Source: Desulfuromonadales bacterium (GTDB lineage: Bacteria > Desulfobacterota > Desulfuromonadia > Desulfuromonadales > JAGXHI01). Taken from it: DNA of 64,000 nt. Positions within the stretch are counted from its first letter, which is position 1. Each line of letters starts with the position of its first letter. Where the stretch lies: NCBI GenBank assembly GCA_024636295.1, contig JAGXHI010000045.1:1-64000 (forward strand). The letters are read 5' to 3'. The notes under the pieces are model-generated. The model made no database searches. It was not told the DNA's origin and saw only the letters and a list, made by a program, of their open reading frames with translations. This document shows positions 1,850-8,815 of this stretch, in pieces. A program made the position numbers and the translations under genes.

Positions 1850-4150
1850 TTGAATATGTTTAGAATGGAAGGATTCATTTCTCTTGATTCCGGGCGTCTG
1901 TTGCATATGTACGATCCAAATGAAAATCCCGGTCTGCTACAGGATGTTCTGAATGCCTGTTCAGACCTCCTTTTTCTGGTTCGATTCCCGTCGGGCGAAA
2001 TTATCCAGGTCAATGAGGAAGCCGGACGCAGTCTGGGAATCTGCCCTGGTGAGATTCCTCTTTTCAGTTGGGAGGAGATCACGGATTTTCCGCTGGAGAC
2101 CCTCGCGGGGGGCGATACTTTTCGGATCCGTCTGAGGGGCGGTTCGGGCCAAAAAGTCGAAGCGAAGGCTTTCGCCCGGAAGTCGAGGACGGATGAATCA
2201 CTTCTACTGGTGAAGGCACAGGATCTGCCCGACCCTGCTATCGGATCTACGGATACGGAGAAGGCGCTCAAAACCCATCAGATCCTGCTCCACTCCCTTC
2301 TCAATTCCATCGATAATGCCGTTCTGGCGCTTGACCGCGATTTCCGGGTCATCTACTTCAACAAGGAATATCTGCGGCTCTATCCATTCGGGCGCAAATT
2401 CATGAACCGCCGGCCCCATATGAAGGAGATTATAAGCCGGGCCTGTGAAATCGGCATCTATCCGGAGGAACAGAGGGAAGAACTGACTGCGAGGCGGTTC
2501 GATCACCTGCGCGATGCCGGGGAGCATGGTCTTTTCAAGATCCCTCGCCAGGACGGTATCGTCGTCGAGGGATTTGCGACAAAGCTTCCCATGGAAGGTT
2601 ACCTGATCACCTATCGCGACATCACGGAACAGAAAAGATCGGAAAAAAGGAGTCGAGAGGCCTATAGCGCGCTGGAAATGGCGAATGATCGCTTAAATGG
2701 CATCATTGAAGGGACACATGATCCAATTGCCGCTATGGATATGAGTTACAGGTTCCTTGCATTCAACAGCGCTTATCGGGTCCACCTCAACCGACATTTT
2801 CAGATTCGACCCCGGTTGGGAGAGACACTTTCTCAGGTATTCTCTTCAAGGCCGGAGGATTTGCAGGCCGCCATGGACACGTGGAGCCAGGCGCTCAATG
2901 GTGAGACCTTTACCAGGATATGGCACAGGGCGGATGAAGAAGGGCGAACCTTTCATTATGAGGTCTCCTTCAATCCCATATGGGATGAAAAAGGAGAACA
3001 GATCGGCGCCTCACACATTCTTCGGGACATTTCGGAGCGCCAGCGGAACGAGGACGCCTTGCGGCAGGCTCTGCAGGAGACGGCCGCCGCGAAGGACCGG
3101 ATCGATGCCATTCTCAAATCCGTAGTCGATGGGCTCATGGTCATGGACAACGAAAGCCGAATTATTTTGATGAATCGCGCATCCGAGGAACTCCTGGGTT
3201 TTCGCTTCGTGGAGGCGGTCGGCCGGTTTCTGGAGGATTGCCTGCAGGATACCGATCTGAAGGAGAAACTCTCGACGACACTCCTCCAAAGCAATCCTTC
3301 CCAGCAGGTGGATTTTCTCCTGCCGACAGCGGATCCTGAAAATCCAAGGACCATTCAGGCCCGAACTTCGGTTATGCTCAGCAGGGAAGAGAAAAAGACA
3401 GGAACCATTATCATCCTTCAGGATGTCACCCGGGCGCGCGAAATCGAACGGATGAAAACGGAGTTCGTCTCAATGGCCGCCCATGAACTGCGAACCCCCC
3501 TGACCTCCATCAGGGGGTATTCGGAACTTCTGCTGAACAGGGATTTCTTCGGGGATTTTCCGCCTGAGCAGCAACAGGAATTTCTGCGGGAAATTCAGGA
3601 CAAAACGGAAGTTCTGACCAGAATCATAGAGGACATGCTGAATATCAGCCGGATTGAATCGGGGCAGTGCATCCCTCTTGAAATGAGAGAATTCCGGATG
3701 GATGAACTGATTCGTAAAATCGTCGGGCATTATCGCATGCAGCATCCCGCCTACCGTTTCGACCTTGAATTAGCGGCCAGGGGCGACGGTCCTGTTTGCG
3801 CCGATCGACACAAGGTACTGCAGGTTCTGGAAAATCTCCTCAGCAATGCCGTCAAGTATTCTCCGGCAGGGGGCCAGGTCAGGATCAGCGGACATGCCAC
3901 TCCCACCTGCTATGAAGTGGCGGTGGAAGATGAAGGCATCGGAATGACCCCGGAGCAGGTCGAGCGAATTTACGATAAATTCTACCGCGCCGATTTTTCT
4001 ACCACAGCCTACGGCGGCCTTGGGCTCGGGATGAGCATCGTGAAAAACATCATCCAGAGTCATGGCGGTCAGATCGAAGTGTGGAGCCGTCCTCATCAGG
4101 GAACGAAAGTTTTCTTCAGCATTCCCCTGGGACGAGACGGATTCTGTTGA
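1850..4150 (+). CDS. Multi-PAS sensor histidine kinase
   Basis: Several PAS/PAC-like segments (HILRDISERQ, YRDITEQK), HisKA H-box MAAHELRTPLTSIRGYSELLL, HATPase DRHKVLQVLENLLSNAVKYS and GGLGLGMSIVK. Confidence 0.9.
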   Translation: MNMFRMEGFISLDSGRLLHMYDPNENPGLLQDVLNACSDLLFLVRFPSGEIIQVNEEAGRSLGICPGEIPLFSWEEITDFPLETLAGGDTFRIRLRGGSGQKVEAKAFARKSRTDESLLLVKAQDLPDPAIGSTDTEKALKTHQILLHSLLNSIDNAVLALDRDFRVIYFNKEYLRLYPFGRKFMNRRPHMKEIISRACEIGIYPEEQREELTARRFDHLRDAGEHGLFKIPRQDGIVVEGFATKLPMEGYLITYRDITEQKRSEKRSREAYSALEMANDRLNGIIEGTHDPIAAMDMSYRFLAFNSAYRVHLNRHFQIRPRLGETLSQVFSSRPEDLQAAMDTWSQALNGETFTRIWHRADEEGRTFHYEVSFNPIWDEKGEQIGASHILRDISERQRNEDALRQALQETAAAKDRIDAILKSVVDGLMVMDNESRIILMNRASEELLGFRFVEAVGRFLEDCLQDTDLKEKLSTTLLQSNPSQQVDFLLPTADPENPRTIQARTSVMLSREEKKTGTIIILQDVTRAREIERMKTEFVSMAAHELRTPLTSIRGYSELLLNRDFFGDFPPEQQQEFLREIQDKTEVLTRIIEDMLNISRIESGQCIPLEMREFRMDELIRKIVGHYRMQHPAYRFDLELAARGDGPVCADRHKVLQVLENLLSNAVKYSPAGGQVRISGHATPTCYEVAVEDEGIGMTPEQVERIYDKFYRADFSTTAYGGLGLGMSIVKNIIQSHGGQIEVWSRPHQGTKVFFSIPLGRDGFC

Positions 4151-4256: not shown

Positions 4257-5003
4257 ATGAGAACCGAACTTCAGCTTGATATTCTGCCGCAGCCTGATGA
4301 GACCTCCTGCGGCCCAACCTGCCTGCACGCACTTTACCGCTACTATGGCAGCGACATCAGCCTGGAGCAGGTCGTTCGTGAAGTATCCATGCTTGAAGAA
4401 GGTGGGACTCTGGCCGTATGGCTGGCGTGCGATGCTCTGAGACGGGGGTTTTCGGCCACCATATATACTTACAAACTGCAGCTTTTCGACCCCACCTGGC
4501 TCATCCCCGGAGGTCCCGACCTGCGGGAAAAACTTCGCGCCCAGATGCTGTTCAAAAAGAACGATCCAAAGCTGGTTGCCGCAAGCCGCGCCTACATCGA
4601 ATTCATCGATCTCGGCGGCCTGCTTTGCTTCGAGGATCTGACCCCAGGGCTGATCCGCCGGCACCTGAAACAATCTATTCCGGTTCTTACCGGACTGAGT
4701 GCCACATATCTTTATCGCAGCGCTCGCGAATTCGGATTCGAGGGAGATTTCGATGATATCCGCGGGGAACCGGCCGGGCACTTTGTTGTGCTGGCAGGAT
4801 ACGACCGCGGGCGGCGCACCGTACTGCTGGCCGATCCTCTCCATTCCAATCCTGTTTCCGAGGGCCGGTTGTATGAAATGAACATTCATCGGGTGATCTG
4901 TTCCATCCTGTTGGGCGTGCTTACCTATGATGCCAATCTTCTAGTCATTCGTCCCCCCAAAAAGAAAAAGGACCGCTTGCATGCCGACGCTCATCGTCGT
5001 TGA
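4257..5003 (+). CDS. C39/papain-like cysteine peptidase-family protein of the ATP-grasp cluster
   Basis: LPQPDETSCGPTCLHALYRYYG (Gln...Cys), GHFVVLAGYD (His) and LADPLHSN (Asp) pattern of C39-like peptidases. ATG at 4257 is a better start than the ORF start at 4062, which overlaps the kinase. Confidence 0.75.
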   Translation: MRTELQLDILPQPDETSCGPTCLHALYRYYGSDISLEQVVREVSMLEEGGTLAVWLACDALRRGFSATIYTYKLQLFDPTWLIPGGPDLREKLRAQMLFKKNDPKLVAASRAYIEFIDLGGLLCFEDLTPGLIRRHLKQSIPVLTGLSATYLYRSAREFGFEGDFDDIRGEPAGHFVVLAGYDRGRRTVLLADPLHSNPVSEGRLYEMNIHRVICSILLGVLTYDANLLVIRPPKKKKDRLHADAHRR

Positions 5004-6456
5004 CGACCCGCGAAAATGGGTTCTTGACATTCCAGAAGTCGAAGTGGTCCCGGCACGGGCCTACCTGACCGACCCGACCTATGCCGAACGGCGTCGGGCG
5101 AAGGTGTTCAATCTCTGCCGATCCTATAAATACCAGAGTATCGGATATTACGTTTCCCTGCTGGCCACCGCCAGGGGTCACAAACCCCTGCCCGGCGTCA
5201 CCACGATTCAGGACTTGAAGTCGGGCTCTCTCATCCGCGGATTTTCCGAAGAGCTCGATCAGCTTATCCAGAAAAGCCTGGCGCCGCTTCAGTCGAGGGA
5301 ATTCGTACTGAGCATCTATTTCGGCCGAAACCTCGCCAAAAGGTATGACCGGCTGAGCCAGCAGCTCTTCAATCTTCTCCCCGCCCCTCTTCTTCGTGCG
5401 ACCTTCGCCTTGCAGGAAAAGAGCGGAAAATGGCAGATGCTGAGCATTACCCCCGTGGCGGCAAGCGAAATCCCCGAGGACCATCGCTCTTTCGTGCAGG
5501 AGGTAGCCCGGGATTTTTTTAAAGCGCGCAGGCGCGGCACCGAGAAGCGCGCCTCCGGTTATGATCTGGCCATCCTGGTTTCCCCCGATGAAAAGGAGCC
5601 TCCCTCCAATGAACGCGCTCTTCAGCGGTTTCTTCGCGCTGCCGATGCCGTGGGGATGAATGCGGAGTTCATAGGGCGGGAGGATTTCGGCCGCCTGTCG
5701 GAATTCGACGGCCTGTTCATCCGGGAAACCACCAACGTAAACCACCATACCTATCGTTTCGCCCGCAAAGCCGCTGCGGAAGGGCTCGTCGTGGTGGATG
5801 ACCCCGAATCGATCCTCAAGTGCACCAACAAGGTCTTTCTGGCTGAAATCCTGGAGCGCAACAAAGTCCGGATCCCCCGCACATTGATTGTCCATCGCAG
5901 CAACCGTGATCGGGTCGAGACCGAACTGGGGCTGCCGTGCATTCTTAAACAGCCGGACAGCTCCTTCTCGCGTGGCGTGGTCAAGGTGGAGACAACAAAG
6001 GAACTTCGGGACGCGATAAAGGGATTACTGGAGAAGTCCGATCTGATCATCGCCCAGGAGTTTCTTCCCACCCCTTTCGACTGGCGCATCGGTGTTTTCG
6101 ATCGGCAGCCTCTCTATGCCTGCAAGTATTACATGGCAAAGGAACATTGGCAGATTCTGAAGCGGGATGCTGGAGGGCGGAAATGTGATGAAGGACGGTT
6201 CGAGACCCTGCCGGTGGAGCATGTGCCGACGCAGGTTCTCCGCACTGCTCTCCGGGCGGCAAATCTCATCGGGGACGGTCTTTACGGGGTGGATCTCAAG
6301 GAGGTCGGGAACCGTGTCTACATCATCGAAGTGAATGACAATCCCAATATCGATGCCGGGGTGGAAGATCAGGCGCTCAAAGAGGAAATCTACCTGCGCA
6401 TCATGCGGGTGCTGCTGCGAAGGATTGAAAACAGCAAAACCGGATTGAGGGCATGA
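4981..6456 (+). CDS. RimK-like ATP-grasp ligase with RLAN-type N-terminal domain
   Basis: C-terminal ATP-grasp signatures: CILKQPDSSFSRGVVKV, IIAQEFLPTPFDWRIGVFDRQPLYACKYYM, YGVDLKEVGNRVYIIEVNDNPNIDAG; ~200 aa N-terminal extension. Overlaps the preceding CDS by 23 nt. Confidence 0.85.
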   Translation: MPTLIVVDDPRKWVLDIPEVEVVPARAYLTDPTYAERRRAKVFNLCRSYKYQSIGYYVSLLATARGHKPLPGVTTIQDLKSGSLIRGFSEELDQLIQKSLAPLQSREFVLSIYFGRNLAKRYDRLSQQLFNLLPAPLLRATFALQEKSGKWQMLSITPVAASEIPEDHRSFVQEVARDFFKARRRGTEKRASGYDLAILVSPDEKEPPSNERALQRFLRAADAVGMNAEFIGREDFGRLSEFDGLFIRETTNVNHHTYRFARKAAAEGLVVVDDPESILKCTNKVFLAEILERNKVRIPRTLIVHRSNRDRVETELGLPCILKQPDSSFSRGVVKVETTKELRDAIKGLLEKSDLIIAQEFLPTPFDWRIGVFDRQPLYACKYYMAKEHWQILKRDAGGRKCDEGRFETLPVEHVPTQVLRTALRAANLIGDGLYGVDLKEVGNRVYIIEVNDNPNIDAGVEDQALKEEIYLRIMRVLLRRIENSKTGLRA

Positions 6457-7706
6457 GCCGCAGGAGGCGACTGCATCTTTTCGAAGGATTCGGGGTCGAG
6501 CTGGAATACATGATTGTCGATCGGGAGTCCTTCTCCGTGCGGCCCATCGCCGACCGCATCCTCAAAAACCCCGCCGGCGATATCGTTTCGGAAATCGAAG
6601 TCGGTCTTCTTCGGTGGTCAAACGAGCTGGTTCTTCATGTCCTGGAATTGAAGACCAACGGTCCGGCGCCCTCTCTCTCCGGTCTGGGGAAAGTATTCTC
6701 AGAGCATATCGGTCGGGTCAATGCCCTGCTGGAGCCCTTCGGGGCGGTTCTCATGCCGGGGGCCATGCATCCCTGGATGGATCCTGCCCGTGAGATGCGG
6801 CTCTGGCCCCACGAAAACAGCACCATTTACGATGCATACAACCGCATCTTCGGCTGCAGGGGCCACGGTTGGGCCAACCTGCAGAGCGCGCACCTGAATC
6901 TTCCTTTTGCCGGCGATAGCGAGTTTGCCCGACTGCACGCCGCGGTCCGGCTGTTGCTTCCCATTCTTCCTGCTCTGGCCGCCTCCTCTCCGGTCATGGA
7001 GGGAGCGATCACAGGTTTTCTCGATACCCGACTGGAAGTCTATCGGCTGAACCAGCGCAGGGTCCCCTCCGTCGCGGGCCGTATCATTCCCGAACCGGCC
7101 TCCGGACGCACCGAATACCGCCGAAATATCCTGAATCCGATGTACGAGGAAATCGCCTCCCTGGATCCCGAGGGTGTCCTGCGTCATGAATGGCTCAATT
7201 CGCGGGGTGCCATCGCCCGATTTGAGCGCAGCGCCATAGAAATCAGGATCCTCGACGTTCAGGAACATCCCGCGGCGGACCTGGCCATTCAGGCGTTGAT
7301 CGTAAAAGTCCTTGAAGCCCTTGTCGGAGATGCATGGATTCCCCTGGACCTTCTCCATTCCTTGCCAGTCGAGTCCCTGTCGCCGATATTTCTGCAGACG
7401 GTCCGGGATGGAGAGGCTTCCATGATTGAGGATTCCCTCTACCTGTCCGCCTTGGGGTTTTCGGGAGGTCGCTGCACCGCCGGTGAATTGTGGAGTGATC
7501 TTTCCACCCGGCTCTTTCCGAAAGGGTCGATGGAGGACGTCGAATTCGGTCCCGCTCTCCAGGTCATACTGGAGCAGGGGACACTCGCCCGGAGGATCCT
7601 CAAAGCACTCGGAACAGAACCCGGTTCTGGCCGCCTTCGGAAAATCTGCCGCTCTCTCTGCCGCTGCCTCGCGGAAGGGGCCTCCTTCCAGCCGCACACT
7701 CTCTGA
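6453..7706 (+). CDS. GCS2-family glutamate-cysteine ligase homologue
   Basis: GVELEYMIVD, ELKTNGPAP, MHPWMDP, HGWANLQSAHLNLPF, SAIEIRILDVQEHP, all GCS2-like. ATGA overlap with the ATP-grasp gene. Confidence 0.8.
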   Translation: MSRRRRLHLFEGFGVELEYMIVDRESFSVRPIADRILKNPAGDIVSEIEVGLLRWSNELVLHVLELKTNGPAPSLSGLGKVFSEHIGRVNALLEPFGAVLMPGAMHPWMDPAREMRLWPHENSTIYDAYNRIFGCRGHGWANLQSAHLNLPFAGDSEFARLHAAVRLLLPILPALAASSPVMEGAITGFLDTRLEVYRLNQRRVPSVAGRIIPEPASGRTEYRRNILNPMYEEIASLDPEGVLRHEWLNSRGAIARFERSAIEIRILDVQEHPAADLAIQALIVKVLEALVGDAWIPLDLLHSLPVESLSPIFLQTVRDGEASMIEDSLYLSALGFSGGRCTAGELWSDLSTRLFPKGSMEDVEFGPALQVILEQGTLARRILKALGTEPGSGRLRKICRSLCRCLAEGASFQPHTL

Positions 7707-7798
7707 TTCTTCTCCTTCCGCTACAGCGGTTTCTCCTTTTTTGGCCGGCTGGACATCCTCCTGGTATACTTGTTCCGACGGCCTGACAAGGAGGCTAT

Positions 7799-8815
7799 AT
7801 GAAGGAAGCACTGTTCTGGGAACGAAAAGAGGATCAAAAGGTTCACTGCTCTCTTTGCCGGTTCCGCTGCCTCATTGCCGAAGGGCAGCGGGGTATCTGC
7901 GGGGTCCGGGAGAACCAGGCGGGCGTCCTCTATACGCTCGTGTACGGCAGAAGTATCGCCGAATCCGTCGATCCCATCGAAAAAAAACCACTATTCCACT
8001 ATTATCCCGGCTCCCTCAGCTTTTCAGTTGCCACCGCAGGGTGCAATTTTCGCTGTCTGCACTGCCAGAATTACCAGATCGCTCACCTTCCCCGCACCAG
8101 TCGGACGATCGCCGGGCACGATCTTCCCCCGGAGGAGATCGTACGCAAAGCGGTGGATGCGGGATGTCGCAGCATCTCCTATACCTACACGGAGCCGACG
8201 ATTTTTTACGAGTATGCCCTGGATACGGCGGTTCTCGCCAAAAAGCAGGGGCTCGGCAATGTCTTCGTCACCAACGGCTATATCACCGAGGAGGCACTCA
8301 CCCGAATTGCGCCTTATCTGGACGCTGCCAACGTCGACCTCAAGGGGTTCACGGAAAAATTCTACAGGGAGGTCGCCGGCGCCACACTTCAAGGCGTCCT
8401 CGATTCCCTCAAGGTCTACCGGAAACTCGGCATCTGGATCGAGGTGACCACACTGATCATTCCAGGCCACAACGACAATGAGGCGGACCTGAAGGGAATC
8501 GCCCGCTTCATCGCGGAGGAACTGGGACGTGAGGTCCCCTGGCATGTGACGGCCTTTTACCCCACCTACAGGCTTCAGGACCGCCCTCCGACTCCGGTGG
8601 AAACTCTTCGACGGGCCCGGGATATCGGTCTGGACGCTGGACTCAGATATGTTTACGAGGGAAACATTGCCGGAGAGGGAGGGGAGAACACATTCTGTCC
8701 CTCCTGCGGACGGGAGGTGATTGAACGCTTTGGATTCCGTCTGGGGGAAATACAAATTATCAACGGAAGATGCTCCTTCTGCAAAGAGCCTCTGGACGGC
8801 GTGGGACTGGAATGA
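7799..8815 (+). CDS. amrS: AmmeMemoRadiSam system radical SAM enzyme
   Basis: CSLCRFRCLIAEGQRGICGVREN, radical SAM CNFRCLHCQN, YTEPTIFYEYALDT, VDLKGFTEKFYRE, CPSCGREVIER. Confidence 0.92.
   Translation: MKEALFWERKEDQKVHCSLCRFRCLIAEGQRGICGVRENQAGVLYTLVYGRSIAESVDPIEKKPLFHYYPGSLSFSVATAGCNFRCLHCQNYQIAHLPRTSRTIAGHDLPPEEIVRKAVDAGCRSISYTYTEPTIFYEYALDTAVLAKKQGLGNVFVTNGYITEEALTRIAPYLDAANVDLKGFTEKFYREVAGATLQGVLDSLKVYRKLGIWIEVTTLIIPGHNDNEADLKGIARFIAEELGREVPWHVTAFYPTYRLQDRPPTPVETLRRARDIGLDAGLRYVYEGNIAGEGGENTFCPSCGREVIERFGFRLGEIQIINGRCSFCKEPLDGVGLE

Follow-up and report, generated by a model that had tools for sequence, protein, structure and literature searches.

The C39 peptidase, RLAN/RimK-type ligase and GCS2 genes of a Desulfuromonadales bacterium form the core of a conserved, predicted amidoligase cassette

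A three-gene locus and its protein families

The window analysed here is a stretch of 64,000 nucleotides from a Desulfuromonadales bacterium, and near its start three genes lie next to each other on the + strand: a C39-like papain-fold cysteine peptidase (P0001, 4257..5003, 248 aa), an RLAN plus RimK/LysX-type ATP-grasp amide ligase (P0002, 4981..6456, 491 aa) and a GCS2-type carboxylate-amine ligase (P0003, 6453..7706, 417 aa). The first two overlap by 23 nt and the last two by 4 nt (ATGA), as the original prediction had described, and AGGA/GAGGA-like ribosome-binding sequences precede the starts of the peptidase and the RLAN ligase. No promoter-like site was detected directly upstream of the cassette, in a scan that performed little above chance. 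A recent foreign origin was ruled out because the GC content of the cassette (0.56-0.60) is near that of its neighbours (0.53-0.58). On the upstream side lies a PAS histidine kinase gene (1850-4150) and on the downstream side one for an AmmeMemoRadiSam radical SAM enzyme (7799-8815); across phyla, neither of the two is a conserved neighbour of the cassette.

The original prediction had proposed a cysteine peptidase, an ATP-grasp ligase with an N-terminal extension and a GCS2 enzyme, that is, two amide-bond formers and one peptidase, and the Pfam family assignments agree with it. P0001 matched Peptidase_C39_2 (3e-10) and Peptidase_C39 (9e-9), and its AlphaFold model (pLDDT 92) was matched in Foldseek by the C39 domains of PCAT1/ComA, the pseudomurein endoisopeptidase PeiR and phytochelatin synthase Alr0975, the last at E about 6e-4 and weaker. 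The motifs named in the earlier reading proved to be the active site, as Q12, C18, H175 and D193 (the catalytic triad and oxyanion Gln) are invariant in 38 homologues. With these residues in a papain fold, P0001 is assigned, from sequence and model, to the C39-type peptidases. It is a stand-alone protein in which the Pfam scan found no ABC domain, no PF11814 (DUF3335) and no GNAT domain, and no signal peptide was apparent by eye.

For P0002, Pfam placed RLAN (PF14401, 3.5e-49) at residues 25-174 and RimK (PF08443, 8e-8) from residue 283, and by this arrangement, PF14401 N-terminal to a RimK-type ATP-grasp, the protein is classified as a member of the RLAN-RimK ATP-grasp family. Residues K284, K323, D438, E450, N452 and N454 are invariant in a 46-row alignment. 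Foldseek matched the C-terminal ∼300 aa to RimK, LysX, ArgX and Ddl; the best matches span the ATP-grasp part only, and the fold of the RLAN domain was not covered by them. The 25 families listed for P0002 did not include the NAGGN synthetase model TIGR03103. P0003 is classified as a GCS2 ligase on its match to PF04107 (6e-25, 88.7 bits versus a cut-off of 21), and E16, E18, N57, E58, E65, H106, N142, Q144, N149, R256, R259, E263 and R265 are invariant in 35 homologues, including the conserved E-x-E / E-x-R core of the family (E16, E18, E263 and R265). The homologues used for residue conservation were mostly 45-70% identical to the window proteins, and, as judged from these alignments, the catalytic residues of the cassette are intact.

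Conserved linkage and a fourth gene

The occurrence of the cassette was examined by a scan with one genome per species, which gave 238 ligase relatives, of which the best 80 were taken; a uniform profile scan was then applied to 91 ATP-grasp loci with enough flanking sequence. All three genes were present in 66 of the 91 loci and GCS2 in 78. The most common arrangement was C39, GCS2 and an FGase-family gene beside the ligase (56 loci), followed by C39 and GCS2 without FGase (10), GCS2 only (10, mostly in Fibrobacter and Planctomycetota), GNAT (10), GCS2 and FGase without C39 (2), none of these partners (2) and C39 only (1). It should be noted that GCS2-type loci are over-sampled in these counts, because the query that retrieved most of the loci was the ligase of the window itself. 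The GCS2 set spans about 15 named phyla, including one Woesearchaeota metagenome-assembled genome (MAG), and since many of the genomes are MAGs, claims about any single phylum are soft. The linkage is thus conserved far outside the Desulfuromonadales lineage, and the possibility raised in the original prediction, that the genes co-occur in this lineage only, does not hold. These results place the window genes at the core of a conserved amidoligase cassette consisting of C39, an RLAN/RimK-type ligase, GCS2 and usually FGase.

The gene order and single strand of the window were kept in nearly all GCS2-bearing loci. In 73 loci the median spacing was -4 nt at both junctions, and the RLAN-GCS2 junction was exactly -4 in 38 of them. 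The spread is patchy: RLAN was found in 17 of 395 genomes of the phylum, and within the order a GCS2-type ligase occurred in 14 of 58 genomes and a GNAT fusion in three more. Several individual loci may be mentioned. The Woesearchaeota MAG (L049) carries the RLAN ligase and GCS2; eight Fibrobacter loci (L071, L073-L077, L079 and L080) have RLAN and GCS2 without recognisable C39 or FGase, F. intestinalis (L078) being the exception with all four genes; and a 9 kb plasmid record of Legionella adelaidensis (L149) begins with consecutive genes annotated as RimK-family, GCS2 and FGase. Anti-phage defence was ruled out as a role, as there was no PADLOC match and the matches to phage records were two weak ATP-grasp ones only.

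The original prediction did not see the fourth gene. In 56 of the 66 loci with C39 and GCS2, the gene after GCS2 encodes an FGase-family amidohydrolase, and the window order, C39, RLAN ligase and GCS2, is that of the four-gene cassette minus FGase. Within the order, each of the 14 genomes that carry both the ligase and the cassette GCS2 also has FGase, versus 5 of the 44 remaining genomes (Fisher p 1e-9, without correction for phylogeny), and it adjoins the cassette in 13 of the 14, the exception being the window genome. At the corresponding position the window has a gap of 92 nt (7707..7798) before the radical SAM gene, which is too short for an FGase. The only FGase in this genome, of the same subfamily, lies alone on another contig (P0004, G000:C16:92444-93166, the same gene as L113:6445-7170), with a cytochrome c peroxidase-like gene as its neighbour. 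Another genome (G014, L138) has a lone FGase in a similar setting, so the window genome's copy may be a long-established paralogue and not one that has moved. Its recruitment from a cassette was also considered, but gains no support from the FGase tree, in which lone and cassette FGases intermix. The absence of FGase beside 10 of the 66 C39 and GCS2 loci and beside the window cassette suggests that this gene may not be essential.

The FGase linkage bears on the possibility that the system serves amine detoxification or utilisation, with the ligases glutamylating amines and the hydrolases releasing products as in gamma-glutamylation pathways. Enzymes of both the GCS2 and the FGase family act on glutamyl or acyl-glutamyl compounds, which would fit this role; however, the cassette has no conserved association with an oxidoreductase, aminotransferase or transporter gene, and we consider the proposal improbable.

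Alternative partner sets and the glutathione question

Two alternative partner sets were found with the RLAN ligase: either a stand-alone C39 with GCS2 (and FGase), or a GNAT, which is often fused to either the ligase or the C39. No locus contained both GCS2 and GNAT (78 versus 10 loci in the 91-locus scan), and a partner-blind sample of the phylum gave 14 GCS2 versus 3 GNAT (Fisher p 0.0015). The GNAT is fused to a DUF3335 peptidase in Desulforhopalus (L081), Azospirillum (L148) and, by sequence, Tistrella (L150); it stands alone beside the RLAN ligase in L069, L164 and L165, and is fused to the ligase in G041, G032 and G241. Neither GCS2 nor FGase was found at the GNAT-type loci, and a profile of the cassette GCS2, run without a positive control, detected nothing in six GNAT-type genomes. 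The GNAT-fused peptidases matched DUF3335 at e-84 to e-91, and the window C39 gave no match to this family. It had been suggested that the window system, lacking the GNAT fusion, is a reduced variant. This view is not upheld: stand-alone C39 with GCS2 is a major form, with its own peptidase family, and GNAT is an alternative that never accompanies GCS2. An apparent case of both in L161/L162 was discarded, as the L162 GNAT is RimI-like, fused in frame to the start of a PGK-like ORF region and about 3 kb from the cassette, and was judged unrelated.

In the ligase tree, the Desulforhopalus ligase with its GNAT-C39 partner groups with the GCS2-type ligases L161/L163 at 100/100, the ligase of the GNAT-type isolate L069 also falls among GCS2-type ligases, and a single clade of GNAT-type ligases was rejected (AU p 3e-7). 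As GNAT-type ligases are nested in the GCS2 clade, the tree indicates that the partner module was exchanged while the ligase lineage stayed. The partner GNATs retain the acyl-CoA motif (R/Q)xxGxA/G and score with the model of RimI (S18 N-acetyltransferase), and that of Desulforhopalus weakly matches the NAGGN synthetase model TIGR03103. In G041 and G032, which belong to the same order, the gene immediately downstream of the GNAT-RLAN-ATP-grasp fusion encodes a SET-domain protein (L114:4628-5215 and L115:6722-7357, respectively), possibly a link to protein-lysine methylation.

A comparative genomic study of 2009, by Iyer et al. in Mol Biosyst 5:1636, reportedly predicted RLAN-RimK amidoligase neighbourhoods. 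The present system is of a kind already predicted there, and our analysis is a refinement of that prediction, in which the exclusivity and exchange of GCS2 and GNAT were measured. The window shares with those neighbourhoods the RLAN and ATP-grasp ligase, a papain-like peptidase and amide-forming partners, but it has a stand-alone C39 instead of DUF3335-GNAT, as well as GCS2, and no adjacent FGase. The 2009 study is cited for the DUF3335-GNAT fusions in later work (PMC10318531). No biochemistry of RLAN ligases was found in the literature searched.

Glutathione synthesis by GshA type 2 and GshB resembles the cassette in using GCS2 and ATP-grasp enzymes in series, and the original prediction had recognised that the two ligases might simply be glutathione enzymes. 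The present data disfavour this outcome. P0003 scored 33 versus 249 bits with the glutamate-cysteine ligase equivalog TIGR02048 and 11 versus 463 bits with TIGR01436, and the cassette GCS2 and ligase are both far below the relevant glutathione-type cut-offs. The same genome encodes a GSH-S_ATP protein elsewhere and, on contig C66, a separate GCS2-family glutamate-cysteine ligase homologue (28% local identity to P0003; it scores 407 bits with the plant-type model of glutamate-cysteine ligase, just under the cut-off of 463). Because of these separate glutathione genes, synthesis of glutathione by the cassette appears unlikely. In one relative (G048) the cassette GCS2 was the only GCS2 detected, so that this comparison does not separate the glutathione and cassette roles for all genomes. 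A broader version would be a glutathione- or phytochelatin-like thiol metabolism, in which gamma-Glu-Cys made by GCS2 is extended with a third residue by the ATP-grasp enzyme and then transpeptidated by the papain-fold enzyme, as phytochelatin synthase does. The same order of reactions as in GshA and GshB and the match of the C39 model to Alr0975 speak for it, but the separate genes and the low GshA scores weigh against it, and the GNAT that replaces GCS2 in related loci would not make gamma-Glu-Cys. We therefore regard it as having little chance of being correct.

Candidate functions of the cassette

Our preferred, still tentative reading is that the cassette builds and recycles a short, N-capped, non-glutathione peptide. 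First, GCS2 would use ATP to acylate an amino acid or amine at its amino group with a cap that is likely gamma-glutamyl. Second, the free carboxylate would be linked to a further amino acid or amine by the RLAN/RimK-like ligase, again at the cost of ATP, so that the product would have the shape of glutathione. Finally, the C39 Cys hydrolase and FGase might cut amide bonds of this product in its maturation, in transpeptidation or in turnover. At GNAT-type loci, GNAT would take the place of GCS2 as the capping enzyme and add an acetyl-type cap, as in N-acetylglutaminylglutamine synthesis. The same capping step is suggested for both enzymes by the facts that each acylates amines and that one is exchanged for the other.

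The RimK/LysX/ArgX group adds residues to carboxyl groups (see also PMC12239564), and this activity together with capping would resemble that of Ngg in NAGGN synthesis. In the synthesis of the osmolyte NAGGN, Ngg catalyses the N-acetylation as well as the formation of the peptide bond, and its operon includes an aminopeptidase (PMC8070244). A capping acyltransferase, a peptide-bond former and a peptidase are found in one operon (AsnO, Ngg and the aminopeptidase; PMC8070244), as in the cassette, and the GNAT-ligase fusions of the relatives resemble Ngg in layout. However, NAGGN synthesis involves another ATP-grasp subfamily, the window uses GCS2 rather than GNAT, and no AsnB-type gene is among the conserved neighbours.

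A further step would be to see one RLAN lineage with two interchangeable N-capping modules (GCS2 for gamma-glutamyl and GNAT for acetyl), each with its own hydrolases, as a new class of capped small-peptide systems in at least 15 phyla; this generalisation is more doubtful than the capped peptide itself. If true, it would point to a widespread, so far undescribed small peptide that might act as a stress solute or cofactor. The linkage, the FGase and the GCS2/GNAT exchange turn a vague idea of peptide tagging into a testable question, namely whether the same substrate is capped by both enzymes.

The capped peptide is favoured by the cross-phylum linkage with its coupled junctions, by the co-occurrence of FGase in the order and by the lack of a precursor peptide conserved across phyla. 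This lack also bears on maturation of a RiPP or graspetide, in which the ATP-grasp enzyme would modify a ribosomal peptide and the C39 peptidase remove its leader. Although RiPP clusters often contain C39 and ATP-grasp genes (PMC8939145), the cassette has neither a conserved ABC transporter nor, across phyla, a conserved short ORF next to it, and the C39 lacks an ABC domain; this role is very improbable. Against the capped peptide are the loci without FGase, the ten GCS2 and RLAN loci without recognisable C39 and the lack, among the neighbours, of a transporter or biosynthetic gene pointing to a metabolite.

The other main alternative is reversible tagging of proteins or peptides, in which the ligases would add amino acids such as Glu to a protein end or side chain and C39 and FGase would remove them, in the manner of RimK on ribosomal protein S6 with RimB. 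The ATP-grasp part is closest to RimK/LysX, and the partner GNATs score with RimI; proteins are the usual substrates of RimK and of RimI-like GNATs, a point in favour of tagging over the capped peptide. SET proteins usually methylate proteins, and the SET-domain genes adjoining two GNAT-ligase fusions would also suit this role. On the other hand, the known GCS2 enzymes act on free amino acids, P0002 is far under the cut-off of the S6-glutamate ligase RimK model NF007764 (16.4 versus 331 bits), and no gene for a carrier or target protein is conserved beside the cassette. The S6 tail encoded in the genome is acidic (...EESASAEESA), which is not decisive for S6 as the target. We consider tagging rather unlikely and rank the small capped peptide above it.

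Precedents for a RimK-fold ligase paired with a peptidase are RimK/RimB, which lends tagging some weight, and RloA/RloC (PMC12239564), but their peptidase is a retropepsin, while the window has a Cys peptidase of the C39 type, an extra RLAN domain and GCS2 as a second ligase. The Anbu operon is likewise a conserved multi-gene cassette with an ATP-grasp enzyme and a hydrolase and a hypothesised role in tagging, though its protein set differs (alphaE, transglutaminase-like and Ntn hydrolase) (PMC6376114).
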